Assembly: GCF_902168435.1 (NCBI RefSeq)
Contig: NZ_LR656166.1
Coordinates: forward strand, 186,001-250,000
DNA length: 64,000 bases
Origin: Bacillus marasmi
GTDB taxonomy: Bacteria; Bacillota; Bacilli; Bacillales; Cytobacillaceae
Reading direction: 5' to 3'
The position numbers were made by a program, and so were the translations under genes. A model generated the notes under the pieces. The model did not search any database. It saw only the letters and a program-made list of their open reading frames with translations, and was not told the DNA's origin. Within the stretch, counting starts at the first letter, position 1, and the number at the start of each line of letters is the position of its first letter. Positions 13,260-43,581 of this stretch are shown here, one piece after another.

Positions 13260-13551
13260 TTTTCATACGGACAGAAGTCATTGCGAAATGGCGAGAAGTG
13301 TCCGTAAGCGAGGTTCATACGGACAGAAGTCAATGTGAAATGGTTACAAGTGTCCGTAAGAGAGGTTCATACGGACAGAAGTCATTGCGAAATGGCGAGA
13401 AGTGTCCGTAAGAGAGGTTCATACGGACAGAAGTTAATGCGAAATGGCAAGAAGTGTCCGTAAGAGAGGTTCATACGGACAGAAGTCAATGCGAAATGGC
13501 AAGAAGTGTCCGTAAGAGAGGTTCATACAGACAGAATTCATTTTGAAGTAA
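13260..13551. repeat. 52-bp tandem repeat array, five full copies plus a partial sixth
   Basis: Copies begin with TTCATACGGACAGAAG at about 13262, 13314, 13366, 13418 and 13470, with a degenerate partial copy from 13522. Each unit contains ACGGACA and TGTCCGT as an inverted repeat about 25 bases apart, with an inner CATT/AATG pair, so every unit can fold into a stem-loop. No ORF or promoter is evident. It fills the gap between the redox-module promoter region and the tetR terminator. Confidence 0.9.
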
Positions 13552-13597: not shown

Positions 13598-14470
13598 TTA
13601 TATCGATTTCAAATAATACCAGATTAAATTGGTAAAGGTGTGTACTTGTGATTCAATGGTTGTGCCTTGGAACAGTTGTTGCATAGGCTTTAAAAATTGT
13701 TTTATCACAATTTTTCGAATCCTTTCTCGATTTAACTCGGTCATAACTGCATCGAGCAAATCTTGCTGTTCTTCATTAAATTTAAATTGTTGTTGAAGGT
13801 TTTGGGCAACCTCTTCAAGCTCTTGGAGAGTGATCGCCTTTTTATCAACCTTTGTTCGAAGTATATCGACGGCTGATTTATTTAATTGTGATGTATTGTT
13901 CTTATGCATTTCTTCAAGAATTAATTCAATATATGTCAAAATTATTTCAACTAAGCGGTTTAACGAATATTGACTGTTTGTAATCCGCATTGAAAACATC
14001 ATATGCTGCAGCATCCCATAAAACAAGATTGCTCCTTCAAACGCACATTCACGAATTTCTTCACCAATGACTTCAATAAAACGGTTTTCTAGCCACTCCA
14101 ATTCAATAACCCGATGGCGCAATACTAATTTTCTTAATTCATTTTCGTTTGATGCTAAAATAGCTTCAAATAGAGCATTTAGATTTCGTTCTTCGTTTAA
14201 ACGTATTAATATCGTAATTTGTTCGATAAAAACATGGCGATCTTGAGCATCTTTTCCGAATTGAATCGCAATCCGCTGTTGGCTGGCATCGTATCGTAAA
14301 AATTCTAATATATCGGCAACACAATCATTTTTCGAGGTGAAATAATTGTAGAAAGTACCTTTTGATATGCTAGCTTTTTCTATAATTTCTTGTATCGAGG
14401 TATTCTGGATGCCTTTTTCAACAAACAGCTTTAAGGCAACGTCAGCTACATTTCTTTTTCGATTATTCAT
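13598..14470 (-). CDS. TetR/AcrR family transcriptional regulator
   Basis: A 290-residue regulator, longer than the usual 190-220. The N-terminal helix-turn-helix domain reads 'NVADVALKLFVEKGIQNTSIQEIIEKASISKGTFYNYFTSKNDCVADIL', a clear TetR signature. The ligand domain is extended by about 80 residues at the C-terminus ('TLQELEEVAQNLQQQFKFNEEQQDLLDAV...'). The gene is divergent from the DHA2 efflux pump at 14628, the classic arrangement for a drug-responsive repressor. The inverted repeat at 14533-14580 is the probable operator. ATG follows GGGAGGAAG. Confidence 0.9.
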   Translation of the reverse strand: MNNRKRNVADVALKLFVEKGIQNTSIQEIIEKASISKGTFYNYFTSKNDCVADILEFLRYDASQQRIAIQFGKDAQDRHVFIEQITILIRLNEERNLNALFEAILASNENELRKLVLRHRVIELEWLENRFIEVIGEEIRECAFEGAILFYGMLQHMMFSMRITNSQYSLNRLVEIILTYIELILEEMHKNNTSQLNKSAVDILRTKVDKKAITLQELEEVAQNLQQQFKFNEEQQDLLDAVMTELNRERIRKIVIKQFLKPMQQLFQGTTIESQVHTFTNLIWYYLKSI

Positions 14471-16323: not shown

Positions 16324-16363
16324 TTGTTAACCTATTGACAGACAAAGATAACACTTTTATAGT
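16324..16363 (+). promoter_or_regulatory. Promoter with BirA-like operator ahead of the bioF paralogue
   Basis: TTGACA (16335-16340) and TATAGT (16358-16363) have a 17-base spacer. TTGTTAACC (16324-16332) and AGATAACAC (16346-16354) bracket the -35 box like the halves of a BirA operator (consensus TTGTTAACC...GGTTAACAA). The gap between 7-mer cores is 15 bases, the same as in the site upstream of bioW at 26318. The right half is degenerate. A leader of about 150 nt follows before the gene. Confidence 0.6.
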
Positions 16364-16520
16364 TTAATTGATTGTTTGTAGTATAACAGGAGATATTTAA
16401 AATTAAAATCAATAGCATTAATATATAGAGATATTTCAGAAAATTAAAAAAATAAAAAGGAGGTTACTTATAAGGAACAAGGTAATTTGGGTTGTCATTA
16501 ATTCGACAAGGGGATAAAGA

Positions 16521-17696
16521 ATGATGATGGGGTTTGAGAAATGGTTAGGTGATCGGTTAAACAAGACGAAGGAATCGGGAAAGTTTCGTACAGTGAAAAC
16601 AATGAATGCTGGACCGAGTCCAATAATGGAAATCGACGGCCGTAAGCAATTAGTTTTTTCATCAAACAATTATTTAGGTCTCGCTAATGATGAAAGATGT
16701 ATTTATGCAGCAGAGACAATCCTTCATCAATTTGGTGTTGGCAGTAGTGGAACGGGCATTACAACGGGTTACACAAAATGGCATCTTATACTAGAAAACA
16801 AACTAGCCCAGTTTATTAATACGGAGGCAACAATTTTGTTTTCAGACGGGTCTCTGGCAATCTTTGGTGTACTTTTATCCATACCCGAAAAGGGTGATGT
16901 CATCTTGTGTGATCAATTCAATCATGTCAGTATCCTTGATGGATGCCAATTATCATATGCAGAATCTATTCATTATCTTCATGTTAATATGGAAGATCTT
17001 GAAGAGAAATTAAGAGATAGCCAAGATCACAAACGCCGTTTTATTGTTACAAAGGGAGTGTTTAGTGAGGATGGAGCTGTTGCGCCTTTAGATAAAATCA
17101 TGTCGCTAGCAAAACAGTATCAAGCGCATGTGATTGTTGATGATTCCCATGGGATCGGAATTTTTGGAGAAAAAGGACGAGGAACATGTGAATACTTTAA
17201 TGTTCGACCTGATATCATAATTGGCTCATTAAGTAATGCTGTTGGTGCTGAAGGGGGATTTGTTTGTGGCTCTAAAGTATTGATTGATTTTTTAAGAAAT
17301 CATGCTAAGACTTTTGTTTATCATCCTTCAATTCCTCCTTCAATCTGCGCAGCGGCTTATGCAGCGCTAGAAATTATTGAAACTAATCAGGAAATACGAA
17401 AGCAGATATTCACCGAAGTAAACTATGCTAGAAATCAATTGGGGGATATGGGCTTTTATATTAAAGGTCATTTATCACCAATTATTACAGTCGTAATTGG
17501 AGATCCACATCAAGCCGAAGCATTTTCTACAAGATTGGAAGAGGAAGGAATATTCGTTCCACTTATTCCGCAACCGACAAACATAAGCAGGGAAAGCAGC
17601 ATTAATATAACGATTACAGCTAATCATACACACAAAGATATTAAATATTTGTTAAGTAAGTTCCAAATGATTGGGAAAGAAATGAATATTATTTAA
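16521..17696 (+). CDS. BioF-like alpha-oxoamine synthase paralogue lacking the PLP lysine (probable pseudoenzyme)
   Basis: A 391-residue protein that aligns with BioF at 27241 without gaps for most of its length and is intact. Several catalytic positions have changed. The PLP-binding Lys237 of BioF ('TLSKAVG') is Asn239 here ('SLSNAVG', codon AAT at 17235). 'SGSR' is 'SGTG', 'SSGYLAN' is 'SDGSLAI', and the C-terminal 'SRIR' that should bind substrate carboxylate is 'SSIN'. The cofactor-stacking His ('FNHVS') and the Asp/His pair 'DDSH' remain. It should not perform Schiff-base chemistry, so the KAPA-synthase reaction is probably lost. The BirA-like operator upstream suggests a role tied to biotin. 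ATG 16521, 16524 or 16527 are all possible after AAGGGGAT. Confidence 0.85.
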   Translation: MMMGFEKWLGDRLNKTKESGKFRTVKTMNAGPSPIMEIDGRKQLVFSSNNYLGLANDERCIYAAETILHQFGVGSSGTGITTGYTKWHLILENKLAQFINTEATILFSDGSLAIFGVLLSIPEKGDVILCDQFNHVSILDGCQLSYAESIHYLHVNMEDLEEKLRDSQDHKRRFIVTKGVFSEDGAVAPLDKIMSLAKQYQAHVIVDDSHGIGIFGEKGRGTCEYFNVRPDIIIGSLSNAVGAEGGFVCGSKVLIDFLRNHAKTFVYHPSIPPSICAAAYAALEIIETNQEIRKQIFTEVNYARNQLGDMGFYIKGHLSPIITVVIGDPHQAEAFSTRLEEEGIFVPLIPQPTNISRESSINITITANHTHKDIKYLLSKFQMIGKEMNII

Positions 17697-17702
17697 GGTG
17701 TC

Positions 17703-17743
17703 AACCAAAGCGGCTAATTCAAATTGAATTAGCCGCTTTGGTT
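17703..17743. terminator. Hairpin between convergent genes
   Basis: AACCAAAGCGGCTAATTCAA pairs with its complement across a 1-base centre, a nearly perfect 20-bp stem. Neither side has a long T run; it abuts the stop of both convergent genes. Confidence 0.6.
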
Positions 17744-26317: not shown

Positions 26318-26361
26318 TTGTTAACCATTTTCGTTTAAAAGTTTACATTTTGTGTTATAAT
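26318..26361 (+). promoter_or_regulatory. BirA-like operator and promoter of bioW
   Basis: TTGTTAACC (26318-26326) and AGTTTACAT (26340-26348) are a degenerate inverted pair like the BirA operator, core spacing 15. TATAAT at 26356-26361 is the likely -10, so the operator overlies the -35 region. BirA with biotinyl-AMP would repress the operon. Confidence 0.6.
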
Positions 26362-26433: not shown

Positions 26434-27198
26434 GTGGAGGAAGAACAATTTTATAGTGTTAGAATGAGAGCTTCACAAAACGGGAGGCATGAATGTGGGG
26501 GGAAGCATATTTCCGGTGGTGAAGCGATTTCTACGTACGACAATCTGCAAAAAGCTGTTAGCGACTTATTAGAAAAAGGTTTACAACATACACGAGGAAA
26601 ACCGGATTTCATGCAAGTTCAGTTTGAAGTGATAGAGGAACCTTTCATAAAAATAAAACCATTAGACATCGTGACAAATGAAGTAACAACAGTGGAGGAT
26701 GGACATTCAGTTGTGATGAGGCTATTAGAGTCAGCAGGTATTCAACAAAAAATCATTCAAAAAGTATATGAACAAATAACTGAATATTCAGGCGCAAGAG
26801 GCGCGATCATCGTTGATTATCGCACGGGAGAGAGACTGGATGATAGGTTTGAACGGGGAATCCGGGTTTCAAGAATGGATTGGAATGTAGGTAATTTTGC
26901 TGATTGGGCAGAAGCTAACAATATGCCTAATCATTCTAGAGTGAAAGAGGCGCTAGTGCTCGCATCAAAGGTAAGTTCCCATCCGTCCTCAATCGCTGAA
27001 TTATGCTGGTCCGACGATCCAGATTATGTAACGGGGTACGTAGCTAGCAGGAAGTTAGGCTATCAGAGAATTACAAAACTTAAAGAATTAGGTGATGAAC
27101 AAGGCTGTCGAATTTTTTTCGTTGATGGTACTACATGCCTAGATTCATATATTCACTTTTTAGAAAAGCAACCAGTTTTTATTCACTGGGAGAAGTAG
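26434..27198 (+). CDS. bioW: 6-carboxyhexanoate--CoA ligase (pimeloyl-CoA synthetase)
   Basis: A 254-residue enzyme, the size of B. subtilis BioW. It converts pimelate, CoA and ATP to pimeloyl-CoA, the first committed step of biotin synthesis in Bacillus. Recognised by 'FYSVRMRASQNGRHECGGKHISGGE', 'RGKPDFMQVQFEVI', 'RGIRVSRMDW', 'HSRVKEALVLASKVSSHP' and 'AELCWSDDPDYVTGYVA', all conserved in BioW. The start is a GTG at 26434 after TGTGGGGGAATAAAG. The BirA-like operator lies about 85 bases upstream and bioF follows 42 bases downstream. Confidence 0.93.
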   Translation: MEEEQFYSVRMRASQNGRHECGGKHISGGEAISTYDNLQKAVSDLLEKGLQHTRGKPDFMQVQFEVIEEPFIKIKPLDIVTNEVTTVEDGHSVVMRLLESAGIQQKIIQKVYEQITEYSGARGAIIVDYRTGERLDDRFERGIRVSRMDWNVGNFADWAEANNMPNHSRVKEALVLASKVSSHPSSIAELCWSDDPDYVTGYVASRKLGYQRITKLKELGDEQGCRIFFVDGTTCLDSYIHFLEKQPVFIHWEK

Positions 27199-27240: not shown

Positions 27241-28410
27241 ATGGAATTTAATCAATGGTTAAATGAAAGATTACATAAAACAATTGAATCGGGGTTATAT
27301 CGAACGTTACGGACGATGACAAGCGCTCCTAATCCGAAAGTGAATGTCGACGGCACTCAGCAGCTTGTCTTTTCATCGAATAATTATCTAGGACTTGCAA
27401 ATGACCGTCGCTTGATTTATGCTGCTGAGGAAATTTTACATGATTTTGGCGTAGGAAGCAGTGGGTCTAGATTAACAACAGGTCATTCAAAGTGGCATCA
27501 AAAGCTTGAGGAAAAAATCGCAACTTTTAAACAGACTGAAGCAGCTCTGCTCTTTTCTTCAGGATATTTAGCCAATGTCGGGGTTTTGTCGGCCATTCCA
27601 GAAGAAGGGGATGTCATACTAAGCGACAAATTAAACCACGCTAGTTTAATAGATGGCTGTCGATTGTCAAAAGCCGAAACGGTTGTTTATCAGCATGTTG
27701 ACATGGAGGACCTTGAAGAAAAGCTTTCTGAAGCACAATCCTATAACCATCGTTTCATTGTAACAGATGGTGTGTTTAGCATGGATGGAAATATTGCTCC
27801 ACTTGATAAGATCATGGCGCTTGCCAAGCGCTACAACGCCTTTGTAATTGTCGACGATGCCCATGCGACAGGGGTGCTAGGTGAGAATGGAAGAGGAACA
27901 AGTGAATATTTCAATCTGCGTCCTGATATTGTGGTTGGGACTCTTAGTAAAGCAGTTGGAACAGAAGGTGGTTTTGTTTGCGGCTCACAAGTGTTGATTG
28001 ATTTTCTAAGAAATCATTCTCGCACTTTCATCTTTCAAACTGCGATGGCCCCCGCGATATGTGCGGCTTCCTATGCTGCGATTGAAATCATTGAGACCAG
28101 TGGGGATAAGCGGCAGCGATTACTCGCGAAGTCAGAACAGATTAGAAAAAGCTTGAAGGTGTTGGGATTTTCCCTCAAAGGCGAGGATACACCAATTATT
28201 CCCGTCATCATTGGGGATCCTTCCGCAGCCGAGCTTTTTGGTAAGAGATTGCAAGAGGAAGGAATCTTTGCACCAGCAATCCGTCCGCCTACTGTTGAGT
28301 GGTCTGAAAGCCGGATTCGCTTAACCGTAACAGCGGATCATAGTTCTGAGCAGATTGAGTATTTACTGGAGAGTTTTGAAAAAATTGGAAAACAACTGAG
28401 CATCATCTAA
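27241..28410 (+). CDS. bioF: 8-amino-7-oxononanoate synthase
   Basis: A 389-residue PLP-dependent alpha-oxoamine synthase that condenses pimeloyl-CoA (or -ACP) with L-alanine to give KAPA. The PLP lysine Lys237 in 'VGTLSKAVGTEGG', the cofactor-stacking His133 in 'LNHASLIDGC', the Asp205/His208 pair in 'VDDAHATG', and the C-terminal Arg in 'SRIRLTVTADH' are all present, so it should be active. 'SSGSRLTTGHSKWH' is the family glycine-rich motif. Its position after bioW separates it from Kbl (2-amino-3-ketobutyrate CoA ligase), a close relative. A near-twin without the lysine lies at 16521. Confidence 0.92.
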   Translation: MEFNQWLNERLHKTIESGLYRTLRTMTSAPNPKVNVDGTQQLVFSSNNYLGLANDRRLIYAAEEILHDFGVGSSGSRLTTGHSKWHQKLEEKIATFKQTEAALLFSSGYLANVGVLSAIPEEGDVILSDKLNHASLIDGCRLSKAETVVYQHVDMEDLEEKLSEAQSYNHRFIVTDGVFSMDGNIAPLDKIMALAKRYNAFVIVDDAHATGVLGENGRGTSEYFNLRPDIVVGTLSKAVGTEGGFVCGSQVLIDFLRNHSRTFIFQTAMAPAICAASYAAIEIIETSGDKRQRLLAKSEQIRKSLKVLGFSLKGEDTPIIPVIIGDPSAAELFGKRLQEEGIFAPAIRPPTVEWSESRIRLTVTADHSSEQIEYLLESFEKIGKQLSII

Positions 28411-28455: not shown

Positions 28456-28919
28456 TAGAAAAATGGGAAACAAAGAGGTGGATTGATGACCGAAAACCCT
28501 ACGACCCGAAAAAATGGGAATCAAAGGGCTGGATTGATGTCCGAAAATCTTCCGACTTGAAAAAATGGGAAACAAAGAGTTGGATTGAAGCCCAAAAATC
28601 TTTCGACACGAAAAAATGCGAATCAAAGAGCTGGATTGATGCCCAAAAATCTTACGACCCGAAAAAATGGGAATCAAAGGGCTGGATTGATGCCGGAAAA
28701 TCTTACGACCCGAAAAAATGGGAATCAAAGGGCTGGATTGGTGCCCGAAAATCTTTCAACCCGAAAAAATGGGAATCAAAGAGTCGGATTGATGCCCAAA
28801 AATCTTTCAACTTGAAAAAATGGGAATCAAAGGACTGGATTGATGCCCAAAAATCCTTCAAACCGAAAAAATGGGAATCAAAAAGTCCGATTGAATCCGA
28901 AAATCTGCTGACTCTATAA
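28456..28919. repeat. 51-bp tandem repeat array between bioF and bioI, nine copies
   Basis: The core AAATGGGA recurs at 28461, 28512, 28563, 28614 (AAATGCGA), 28665, 28716, 28767, 28818 and 28869, exactly 51 bases apart. A unit reads roughly GAAAAAATGGGAATCAAAG then GGCTGGATTGATGCCCGAAAATCTTACGACCC. Because 51 is divisible by three, several frames stay open. One frame would give a 17-residue repeat beginning KKWESKGWIDAQKSYDP, open from 28446 to 28919, but it has no ATG and no ribosome-binding site. I treat it as a DNA or RNA repeat, not a gene. Confidence 0.92.
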
Positions 28920-28955: not shown

Positions 28956-30167
28956 ATGAAAACTAAACAAGCGGTAAAAATAAAACCATTAACTCTCACA
29001 TCGCCAGAGTTTTTGAGAGATCCATATACAATATATAAGAAAATGCGCTCTACGAACCCAATCATAAAAATGTCAGCCTTCAAATACTCCGGTTGGTACG
29101 TAACCGGTTATGACGAGGCTGTAGCAATCTTAAAAAATACTAAATTTCAAAACCGCGTTCCCTTGCCTAAAGCCGGCACAAAATACGAGGCTTTGAAAAC
29201 GATTCAAGAGGATATGCTTGTATTTAAAAATCAACTAGACCATAAGCGTTTGCGCTTGATTATGAGTAAAGGATTTAAACCGAACGCCATCGAAGGACTG
29301 CGAACATATATGGAAATAACGGCTCACGAACTGCTAGAAGATGTGAAAAATCAACACCATATCGATGTGGTTGCAGACTTAGCCTCTCCATTAGCAAGCC
29401 AGGTGATTGCAAAATTACTAGGAATACCAGAAGCGGATCGACATTTGTTCCGAAGATGGACGCTGGAGTTAATTCCAACGATTGATTTTACGCGGTCCAG
29501 GGACTTATTGGCTCATGGTAATGAAACGATTCAAGAGTTCGTGGATTATATGAAAAGTTTAATCCAACAGCGAAAGCAAGATCAACAGAATGATTTTATC
29601 AGTCAATTAATTAAAGAGGAACTGCAAGGGGAAACGATATCAGTTGGGGAACTGCTTTCTGCCTGTATCTTGCTAGTAATCGCAGGTCACGAGACAACTG
29701 TAAACCTCATTAGTAATGCAATCCTTTGTCTATTGAAAAATCCAGAGCAATTAAGTCTACTTAGGGAGAATCCAGGGCTAATTCAATCTGCGGTTGAGGA
29801 GGTTTTGCGGTTTGAAAGCCCAACGCAATTGACAGCTCGTGTTGCAGCTCAGGCAGTAGAGGTGAATGGAACAACTATTCAGCAAGGGGAGCAGGTCTAT
29901 GTATTGCTTGGAGCAGCAAATCATGATCCAAAACAATACACGAATCCTGAACAATTTGATATAACAAGAAACCCAAATCCGCATATTGCGTTTGGGTTTG
30001 GCTCTCATTTTTGTTTAGGCGCAGCGTTGGCTCGACTTGAAGCCTCAGTTGCAGTCCAAGCGTTCCTAGAGAAATTCGAGCATATCAATTTAGCAACCGA
30101 TCAGCCAAAATGGCGAAAGCTTGCCGGCTTCAGAGCACTCGAAGAACTAATCATCACAGTAAATTAA
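28956..30167 (+). CDS. bioI: Cytochrome P450, BioI-type (pimelate-forming)
   Basis: A 403-residue P450. The oxygen-activation helix 'VIAGHETTVNLI' (near residue 245), the ExxR pair 'EEVLRFE' and the haem-ligand loop 'FGFGSHFCLGAALARLE' with the axial Cys are all present. B. subtilis BioI cleaves the C7-C8 bond of acyl-ACP fatty acids to give pimeloyl-ACP. The assignment to BioI rather than another CYP107 member rests on its place behind bioW and bioF. Here the 51-bp repeat array separates it from bioF. GAGGTA precedes ATG 28956. Confidence 0.82.
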   Translation: MKTKQAVKIKPLTLTSPEFLRDPYTIYKKMRSTNPIIKMSAFKYSGWYVTGYDEAVAILKNTKFQNRVPLPKAGTKYEALKTIQEDMLVFKNQLDHKRLRLIMSKGFKPNAIEGLRTYMEITAHELLEDVKNQHHIDVVADLASPLASQVIAKLLGIPEADRHLFRRWTLELIPTIDFTRSRDLLAHGNETIQEFVDYMKSLIQQRKQDQQNDFISQLIKEELQGETISVGELLSACILLVIAGHETTVNLISNAILCLLKNPEQLSLLRENPGLIQSAVEEVLRFESPTQLTARVAAQAVEVNGTTIQQGEQVYVLLGAANHDPKQYTNPEQFDITRNPNPHIAFGFGSHFCLGAALARLEASVAVQAFLEKFEHINLATDQPKWRKLAGFRALEELIITVN

Positions 30168-41736: not shown

Positions 41737-43581
41737 ATGAGTGGAAAAGGCTATAATTTTAAGAAAAAAATGAATATTAATAAACAAAAGTCTATTTATA
41801 AAACAAAGAGACTTATGAAAGCATATTTGATTTCTAGTATGCTACTTTTGCCAATGGCAAACGTTGTTGGGGCTGAATCAGTGACTACCCCTGGTCAAAT
41901 GTTAATTAATCCTACTATTGAAGTACAAGCAGTTAGTGCACAAAGTATAGCTGAGGTGCAGCTATTAACAGATGTCTCGTTGAATGCTACACTGACTGAA
42001 GCAGTAGATTATTACAATCTTCTATTAGATATGGATGGTAAAGGCTTGGCAGATGCTGAACTGTTAACTCCAGATCGTGTAGTTGCATTTTATGCACCAG
42101 AATTAGCAGGGAAATTTGTTGATGAGGAAATACTAGCTGATGTTAGTGTAGATATCCTACCAGTTACAGTGAATGATTTACCTACACTAAAAGGTGCGCT
42201 TGATCCTTTAATGATAACTGTTAATGTAACTTTAACTACTTTATTAGATCGATTAGCATGGTTGGCTTCTAATCCACTACTTGGTGTTGAAGGGTTAGAG
42301 GAATTAGAGTCTGCAATTGATGCGTTAAACAATGTAGACAGTGCTTTAGTTGATTTACTAGATTATCAAGATCAAGTAGTTGTAACAATAAACCCAGATG
42401 GAACACTCGTTGTTGACTTTGGTGATGGTTTAGGTAATCATGTTGAAACTTTAGTAAATGATGTTGTTGTGGATCTATTAACTGATTTAACAGTTGCAAT
42501 TAATGGATTAAAGATTACCGGTTATACAGGACCATTACTTAATCAGATTCTTGACCCAGTAAAAGCATTATTAACTCAAGTTCAACCTGTAATTACTGGA
42601 TTAACTGATGGTACTATTGACCTAACGAATGATCTAGCTGGTGCCCAAGTAATTGGTCACACAGATGTAACGCTAAATGCAAAAGTTGCTAAGCCTGCTG
42701 AAATTGATGGGGACGTTACAATTAAAGCTGTAGGAGTTAGTACTACTGCAATAGATGCTGCTTTATTTACAGACGCTACTGGTTCAGATACTGTGACATT
42801 TGATGAGGATACAGATGCCGACGCGGATGCCGACGCGGATGCAGATGCTGACGCCGATGCGGATGCAGACGCGGATGCGGATGCGGATGCAGATGCTGAC
42901 GCCGATGCAGATGCAGACGCCGATGCAGATGCAGACGCCGATGCGGATGCTGACGCCGATGCAGATGCAGACGCGGATGCGGATGCTGACGCGGATGCGG
43001 ATGCCGACGCGGATGCGGATGCCGACGCGGATGCGGATGCCGACGCGGATGCGGATGCGGATGCTGACGCGGATGCCGATGCAGATGCAGACGCGGATGC
43101 GGATGCGGATGCTGACGCCGACGCGGATGCTGACGCCGATGCCGACGCTGATGCAGATGCGGATGCTGACGCGGATGCAGATGCAGACGCCGATGCAGAT
43201 GCAGACGCCGATGCAGATGCAGACGCCGATGCAGATGCCGACGCGGATGCAGATGCCGACGCGGATGCGGATGCAGATGCCGATGCAGATGCAGACGCCG
43301 ACGCTGACGCCGATGCAGATGCAGACGCCGATGCTGATGCGGATGCTGATGCGGATGCTGACGCCGACGCCGACGCGGATGCTGACGCCGATGCGGATGC
43401 CGATGCAGACGATGACAAAGCTCCAAATACAAATACAAACACAAACACAAACACAAACACTAAAACAACAGGAAATTTACCAAATACTGCTTCATCAATG
43501 TGGAATACTGGTTTACTTGGGTTGAGTGCAGTACTTGCTGGACTAGCTGCAAGAATGTTTGGTAGAAGAAAACAGTCATAA
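41737..43581 (+). CDS. Cell-wall-anchored surface protein with Asp-Ala repeat and LPNTA sorting signal
   Basis: A 614-residue surface protein. A basic N-terminus of about 30 residues leads to the signal peptide '[22 protein letters not shown]'. A roughly 300-residue Val/Leu/Asp-rich region follows. Then 99 uninterrupted Asp-Ala dipeptides run from 42814 to 43407. 'TNTNTNTNTNT' spacers lead to 'NLPNTAS', a hydrophobic span and a 'GRRKQS' tail. LPNTA is the signal recognised by class D sortase (SrtC of B. anthracis); no sortase is in the window. Codons for Asp and Ala alternate widely (GAT/GAC, GCA/GCC/GCG/GCT), so the repeat is kept at protein level. A long flexible acidic stalk is likely. ATG 41737 follows GGAGG. 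Confidence 0.9.
42814..43407 (+). repeat. Asp-Ala coding repeat (99 units of GAY GCN)
   Basis: 594 bases of six-base units without interruption, inside the surface protein gene. Higher-order units of 12 and 18 bases recur. Three forward frames and the reverse strand are largely open across it because no stop fits the pattern. Confidence 0.95.

Follow-up and report, generated by a model that had tools for sequence, protein, structure and literature searches.

Why should a bacterium keep, about 10 kb from an intact gene for 8-amino-7-oxononanoate synthase (BioF), a second full-length copy in which the Schiff-base lysine is replaced by asparagine? The question is raised by a gene, here called par, in 64,000 nucleotides of Bacillus marasmi DNA (contig NZ_LR656166.1, positions 186,001 to 250,000 of the forward strand), which we refer to as the window. 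Here we argue from sequence comparison that par is a real, conserved BioF paralogue, very probably dead for KAPA synthesis, and we weigh the roles that such a protein might play. The features on which the argument draws are listed below in window coordinates.

16324..16354, plus strand: remnant of a BirA-type operator; the left half-site (13.8 bits) is perfect, the right one (1.5 bits) has decayed
16335..16363, plus strand: promoter-like TTGACA-N17-TATAGT, overlapping the operator; 37/45 identical to the homologous stretch in a related genome (G001)
16521..17696, plus strand: par, BioF paralogue of 391 aa, very probably catalytically dead (ORF list, alignment to bioF)
17703..17743, no strand assigned: hairpin (AACCAAAGCGGCTAATTCAA...) right after par, read by eye from the sequence
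26318..26348, plus strand: BirA-type operator of bioW (26.2 bits), among the 17 sites of the matrix
26434..27198, plus strand: bioW, 6-carboxyhexanoate-CoA ligase (profile score)
27241..28410, plus strand: bioF, the intact gene for 8-amino-7-oxononanoate synthase and sister of par (profile score, alignment, tree)
28956..30167, plus strand: P450 whose nearest PDB entry is 3ejb, a P450 of biotin biosynthesis (BioI type)

Residues lost and kept in the paralogue

The frame 16521-17696 is intact, with no internal stop in its 391 translated codons, and its product aligns without gaps to that of bioF (232/389 identical, about 60%), as an initial annotation of this DNA had stated. The start codons of bioF and of the copy found in genome G004 (below) line up with the third ATG of the frame, at 16527. 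Also as annotated, the codon for the Schiff-base Lys is AAA at 27949 in bioF and AAT at 17235 in par (K237N; bioF numbering throughout). The annotated list of replacements (this Asn, Gly for the Arg of SGSR, Ser for the Tyr of SGY, Ser and Asn for the two Arg of SRIR) is correct in each entry but incomplete, having missed D176K, T234S, Q266H/T267P and R348P; at functional positions par carries R77G, Y109S, D176K, A207S, T234S, K237N, Q266H, T267P, R348P, R358S and R360N. H133, S180, D205 and H208 are unchanged, and the cofactor Asp and His thus do persist. The Gly of SGSR is present but not disabling alone: E. coli BioF (b0776) has Gly at that position (77), and we rejected the change as proof of death. 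The idea of a BioF with a conservative swap was rejected as well, since the changes reach Lys, Arg, acid and phosphate loop alike.

These changes stand out among the homologues. The Lys of the (G)TLSKA motif is present in 91 of 93 distinct homologues (collected as loci, Kbl-type sequences included), and the two with Asn are par and its orthologue in G004, together called the two pars below. Position 176 is Asp in 90/93, Glu in 1/93 and Lys in both pars, and the PLP-ring His, N1 Asp and O3' His (H133, D205, H208) occur in 93/93. The substrate-carboxylate Arg (R348) is Pro in both pars and Arg in 44 of the 46 homologues at least 58% identical to bioF; Kbl-type homologues have V, A, F and others there, which marks this Arg as a feature of BioF. 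By sequence par is of the same fold family as BioF over its full length, with the His/Asp/His of the PLP ring kept; it differs in the missing Schiff-base Lys and substrate-carboxylate Arg, in D176K and in the altered phosphate loop. Its score of 378.9 bits with the BioF model TIGR00858 (500.3 for bioF) lies under the curated cut-off of 426.45, so that par is not a BioF equivalog by that cut-off. With the model for the serine palmitoyltransferase alpha subunit (NF047603) it scores 217.6 bits, far under the curated cut-off of 670, and its assignment as a subunit of that enzyme was rejected.

In the serine palmitoyltransferase SmSPT, as far as its structure is described in the main text of PMC10196870, PLP is held by a stacking His, the N1 Asp, the O3' His, Ser/Thr side chains, the Lys and residues of the opposite subunit. 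These contacts map to positions 133, 205, 208, 180, 234, 237 and 266-267. By this mapping the ring contacts persist in par, the Lys is gone, and Pro occupies the position whose backbone NH would contact the phosphate.

Relatives, origin and retention

Five genomes of the genus were compared, G000 (the par genome) to G004. The orthologue in G004 is 69% (69.2%) identical to par and carries the same Asn, K176, P267 and P348, the change of QT to HP in the phosphate loop being common to both; an orthologue with Asn, which the initial annotation had proposed to look for, thus exists. With the same Asn and many other shared changes in G004, sequencing error was rejected as the source of the replacement. 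Both genomes share the order par, small ORF, amtB, methyltransferase, MFS transporter, ldh, PNPOx-like gene, bioW, bioF and P450 (names assigned by eye except for bioW, bioF and P450), and both carry bioW-bioF about 10 kb from the Lys-less gene. Otherwise the genes between par and amtB differ, and the G004 contig stops 275 bp before par.

G001 has a single gene of this kind, 61% identical to par and 70% to bioF, near an amtB. It resembles par in Gly77, Ser109, the loss of the first Arg of SRIR (Cys358) and a homologous promoter stretch, and differs in keeping Lys237, Arg348, Thr267 and with it the phosphate loop, in the acidic residue (Glu) that it has at 176, and in a BirA-type site of full strength. 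G001 gave no bioW match, no BioI-type P450 at E <= 1e-40 and no second bioF at E <= 1e-90, the next match (37% identical, 7.9e-79) being Kbl-like. In G002, par, bioF and bioW were all absent at the limits used (E <= 1e-90 for the BioF family). G003 has two bioW and two BioF-like genes 43-45% identical to par, and par was not found in its assembly of 570 contigs with 9% contamination. Wider searches covered 193 genomes for the family (17 with a match at E <= 1e-90) and 397 genomes drawn from the order (41 with a match at E <= 1e-100, 42 matches, the Lys position being inspected in 32 of the 42). In a scan of genome contigs, named relatives had 25-40% identity only, and the 691 plasmid records with a match all lay below 60%.

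As to the rest of the pathway, models for bioB, bioD and BioY scored above cut-off in all five genus genomes and bioA in 4/5, with bioC under cut-off in all five; the BioI-type P450 was found in G000 and G004 only (E <= 1e-40). In G000, bioY lies inside the bioD-bioA cluster. Between bioF and the P450 of the window, at 28459-28882, a 51-bp unit is repeated 8.3 times, open on the plus strand as KKWESKSWIDAQKSF-like repeats and open on the minus strand too.

In a tree of 32 rows the bioF genes of G000 and G004 form one group (100/98) and the G001 gene forms another with the two pars (100/99), each group being the sister of the other (99/93). The grouping of the G001 gene with the pars held when the active-site segments were removed (97/89); its placement with bioF instead was not rejected by an AU test (p 0.069). 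Upstream, the promoter stretches of par and the G001 gene match over 45 bases (37 identical, E 1e-6), and the region before par matches that before bioW of G004 (40/52, E 4e-5), with no significant match to the region before bioW of its own genome (E 3.2). Promoter homology and neighbourhood, the latter with genes named by eye, favour the G001 gene as the orthologue of par, and it is likely a form that predates the losses. The sequences also support an origin of par by duplication of bioF, with its BirA-type promoter, inside this genus. From the tree and the upstream homologies, events likely ran as follows: bioF was duplicated along with a bioW-type promoter, the acyl pocket of the copy changed, and later, in the G000/G004 lineage, Lys, Arg, acid and phosphate loop were lost.

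Of the 93 columns invariant in 43 BioF sequences, 26 are replaced in par, 30 in the G004 copy and 14 in the G001 gene; the two pars have 22 replaced columns in common, and at 15 of these they carry the identical residue. Because the two pars share the same Asn and these 15 replacements at otherwise invariant columns, the losses predate the split of G000 and G004, and purifying constraint has acted after catalysis was lost. For the par pair the NG86 method gives dN 0.211, dS 1.36 and dN/dS 0.154 (bootstrap 0.106-0.228, 200 resamples), and LWL85 gives 0.222; the bioF pair has 0.083 by NG86 (0.054-0.121 from 198 usable resamples) and 0.111 by LWL85. The NG86 values available for nine other neighbours range from 0.044 to 0.123, an ABC permease has saturated dS and no NG86 value, and the small ORF beside amtB (LWL85 0.223) is level with par. 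These two methods were used since at such saturation the maximum-likelihood ratio is not stable, coming out at 0.73 for the two bioF genes and 0.073 for the two pars. The identity of the pars lies within the range of their 11 neighbours (62.8-88.3%). In a neutral simulation at 0.68 substitutions per site, none of 500 copies kept an open frame, and at 0.10 only 5/500 did. The annotation's view of a retained, catalytically dead gene is borne out as to retention, by the orthologue with the same Asn and by a dN/dS far below 1, the value it had named as a check, and as to catalysis the gene is very probably dead. Neither a broken frame nor a dN/dS near 1, the marks of a pseudogene, is seen in par; a young pseudogene was rejected on the intact frames in both genomes, the dN/dS and the shared Asn.

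Promoter, operator and hairpin

The same TTGTTAACC begins at 16324 before par and at 26318 before bioW, and both sites have the 9-13-9 geometry, which upholds the annotated likeness between the two as far as spacing goes; in par only the left half is good. The promoter placed by the annotation inside the half-site pair is there as TTGACA-N17-TATAGT, with its -35 alone between the half-sites and its -10 beyond them. The half-site matrix used for scoring was derived from the genus itself, from 17 sites that lie near bioB, the bioA cluster, bioY and bioW and have 13 bases between their halves; it excludes the par site, the two G001 sites that precede the par orthologue, and any site whose spacer has another length. 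That BirA binds at these sites is our assumption, made from their likeness to the known consensus and from the genes that they precede.

The par site scores 15.3 bits, below all 17 in-genus sites (20.3-28.1, the matrix being built from these same 17), next to 26.5 for the G001 gene (outside the matrix), 26.2 for bioW and 27.7 for bioW of G004. It is unlikely to be a chance match, because a mean of 0.1 sites per 64 kb is expected at this score (20 random sequences). No BirA-type operator was seen before the G004 orthologue in the 275 bp up to the contig end. BirA control thus seems ancestral to the par lineage, as read from these sites, and seems to have faded along with catalysis. Biotin control of par itself is doubtful: the annotated "biotin-controlled" is poorly supported, and a strong form of such control is weakened as a candidate by the half-decayed operator. 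The hairpin after par, whose core is also found 3' of the G004 orthologue, suggests a single-gene transcript.

Several related sites were observed in passing. A full-strength BirA-type site lies at 1365-1395 of the G001 locus, where it closely follows the promoter of the orthologue that still has the Lys. Tandem BirA-type sites 53 bp apart occur upstream of the bioD-bioA cluster in both G000 (locus L095, 37 and 90) and G004 (locus L096, 3668 and 3721). At the edge of the G004 contig, a 72-base stretch right before the par orthologue (locus L073, 23-94) matches a group II intron model at 32.7 bits, under the Rfam gathering score of 40; such an element may have displaced an operator there.

Constraint and possible roles of par

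If par is kept without catalysis, the positions that resist change may indicate its role. In the cis catalytic segments the two pars differ at 25/66 positions vs 93/296 in the rest (p 0.31), no better conserved than the remainder, and the bioF pair differs at 2/66 and 77/296. In the interface loops (70-80 and 258-270) the pars differ at 2/24 positions and the bioF pair at 3/24; for the pars this gives p 0.019 against the rest and 0.008 against the cis segments, values that are exploratory, the segments having been defined after block identities were seen, and that run from 0.005 to 0.18 with other boundaries. Interface positions were taken from the alignment to SmSPT and from the main text of PMC10196870, where the marks for the opposite subunit were reconstructed from blanks and from the correspondence to SPTLC1. 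Among residues named in that text, 1/9 trans (p 0.28) and 1/12 cis (p 0.11) differ between the pars, together 2/21 vs 118/365 elsewhere (Fisher p 0.029), and these 21 include replaced ones (N237, S207, S234, H266, P267, P348). In the substrate arm, 344-360, 12/17 differ. On this exploratory view, pocket and interface are held in a new form as the arm for the amino-acid substrate drifts freely, a pattern compatible both with a non-catalytic partner and with a ligand-binding protein, and one that does not decide between the two.

We infer that par by itself is unable to perform the chemistry of alpha-oxoamine synthases and persists as a protein without catalysis. Its role is a more tentative matter. 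The leading reading, to which we give a probability of roughly 0.38, makes par a non-catalytic, LCB1-like partner of BioF: it would still fold like BioF and pair with it, and in the heterodimer would change activity, stability or substrate choice of the single working site, an influence that is conceivable because enzymes of this family form their active sites where the two subunits meet. Loss of Lys with retention of the protein is already described for this family in LCB1/SPT1: according to the passages of PMC6148460 on eukaryotic serine palmitoyltransferase, the Lys is absent from SPT1/LCB1, the pair that this subunit forms with SPT2 presumably has one active site, and this 2018 review calls that heterodimer unique among alpha-oxoamine synthases. 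Par shares with LCB1/SPTLC1 that it is a Lys-less paralogue of a working synthase in a family whose active site is shared across the dimer interface. By the same passages LCB1 also lacks the equivalents of SpSPT H159, D231, H234 and R390, whereas par lacks only the Arg and so is not assignable to LCB1 by the His/Asp/His/Arg losses; and LCB1 is an established heterodimer subunit, whereas the pairing of par with BioF is proposed only. Dead paralogues kept beside an active copy are also known for trypanosomatid AdoMetDC (the prozyme) and DHS, where, in other enzymes and pathways, the parts of PMC5201418 and PMC3663545 that we used report activation by the dead paralogue.

Pairing with BioF fits the distribution, in which a Lys-less par is accompanied by bioF and the Lys is kept in G001, where no other bioF was found at E <= 1e-90; as only two Lys-less sequences are known, this association rests on three genomes, and G003, with bioW and BioF-like genes and no par found, weighs against it. 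The interface loops, conserved between the pars as the cis segments drift, count for the partner in the exploratory sense given above. The strict set of nine trans residues (p 0.28) counts against it, with the cis pocket equally conserved (1/12), as do the position of par outside the bioW-bioF operon and its half-lost operator. The altered trans loop (T267P, Q266H) should lend BioF a weaker contact to the PLP phosphate, a further point against.

Close behind comes a role for par as a homodimer independent of BioF, in which the remodelled pocket would bind PLP/PMP, an acyl-thioester or some other small ligand without turnover, making par a sensor, carrier or sequestering protein. We hold this possible, if on balance unlikely. 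The kept PLP-ring contacts H133, D205, H208 and S180 speak for it, as do the low divergence at the 21 named pocket residues, replaced ones included, and a promoter and hairpin of its own apart from the bio operon. T267P and Y109S, however, touch positions that bind the phosphate, by the mapping to the contacts that PMC10196870 describes for SmSPT, the flanking cis segments drift, and the 391 residues hold no extra domain.

It is improbable that par is a redundant duplicate on its way out under relaxed selection only. An intact bioF lies nearby, the cis catalytic segments and the operator are decaying, a possible group II intron (below the Rfam gathering score) sits beside the G004 copy, and the NG86 dN/dS of par is the highest among the neighbours measured, although by LWL85 the small ORF equals it. 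Yet that dN/dS is far below 1, the frames are intact after a dS of about 1.4, the 69% identity of the copies is within the range of their neighbours, and 15 replacements at invariant columns are shared.

A shade less probable still is an enzyme with new chemistry that needs no Schiff-base Lys at 237, for example through Lys176 or PMP. The pocket conserved in its new form agrees with it, and Lys176, found in both Lys-less orthologues four residues ahead of the Ser that faces the PLP O3', appears to have been gained on the same branch on which Lys237 was lost. Against it, the substrate arm is unconserved between the pars, and a term search of the main text of PMC10196870 gives no mention of SmSPT Asp181, the residue that maps to 176. 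The specific form in which the Schiff-base Lys has relocated, with Lys176 binding the cofactor in a fold-type-I enzyme of new reaction, we regard as very unlikely.

Were par indeed a partner of BioF, it would be a bacterial, recently evolved dead partner that stands next to its active counterpart and has a likely pre-loss orthologue within the genus, so that the steps from homodimeric enzyme to dead partner could be replayed at the bench, and it would add an unrecognised layer to biotin synthesis. Among the matches listed in open-licence literature we found no report of an inactive BioF paralogue.

Two further repeat arrays were observed elsewhere in the window. Between two minus-strand genes, at 13262-13540, a 52-bp unit is repeated 5.4 times with 92% matches, just beyond the end of a TetR-like gene (13598-14470, family assigned by eye). 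At 42802-43403 an 18-bp unit, GATGCGGATGCCGACGCC, is repeated about 34 times and is Asp-Ala-rich if translated in that frame.
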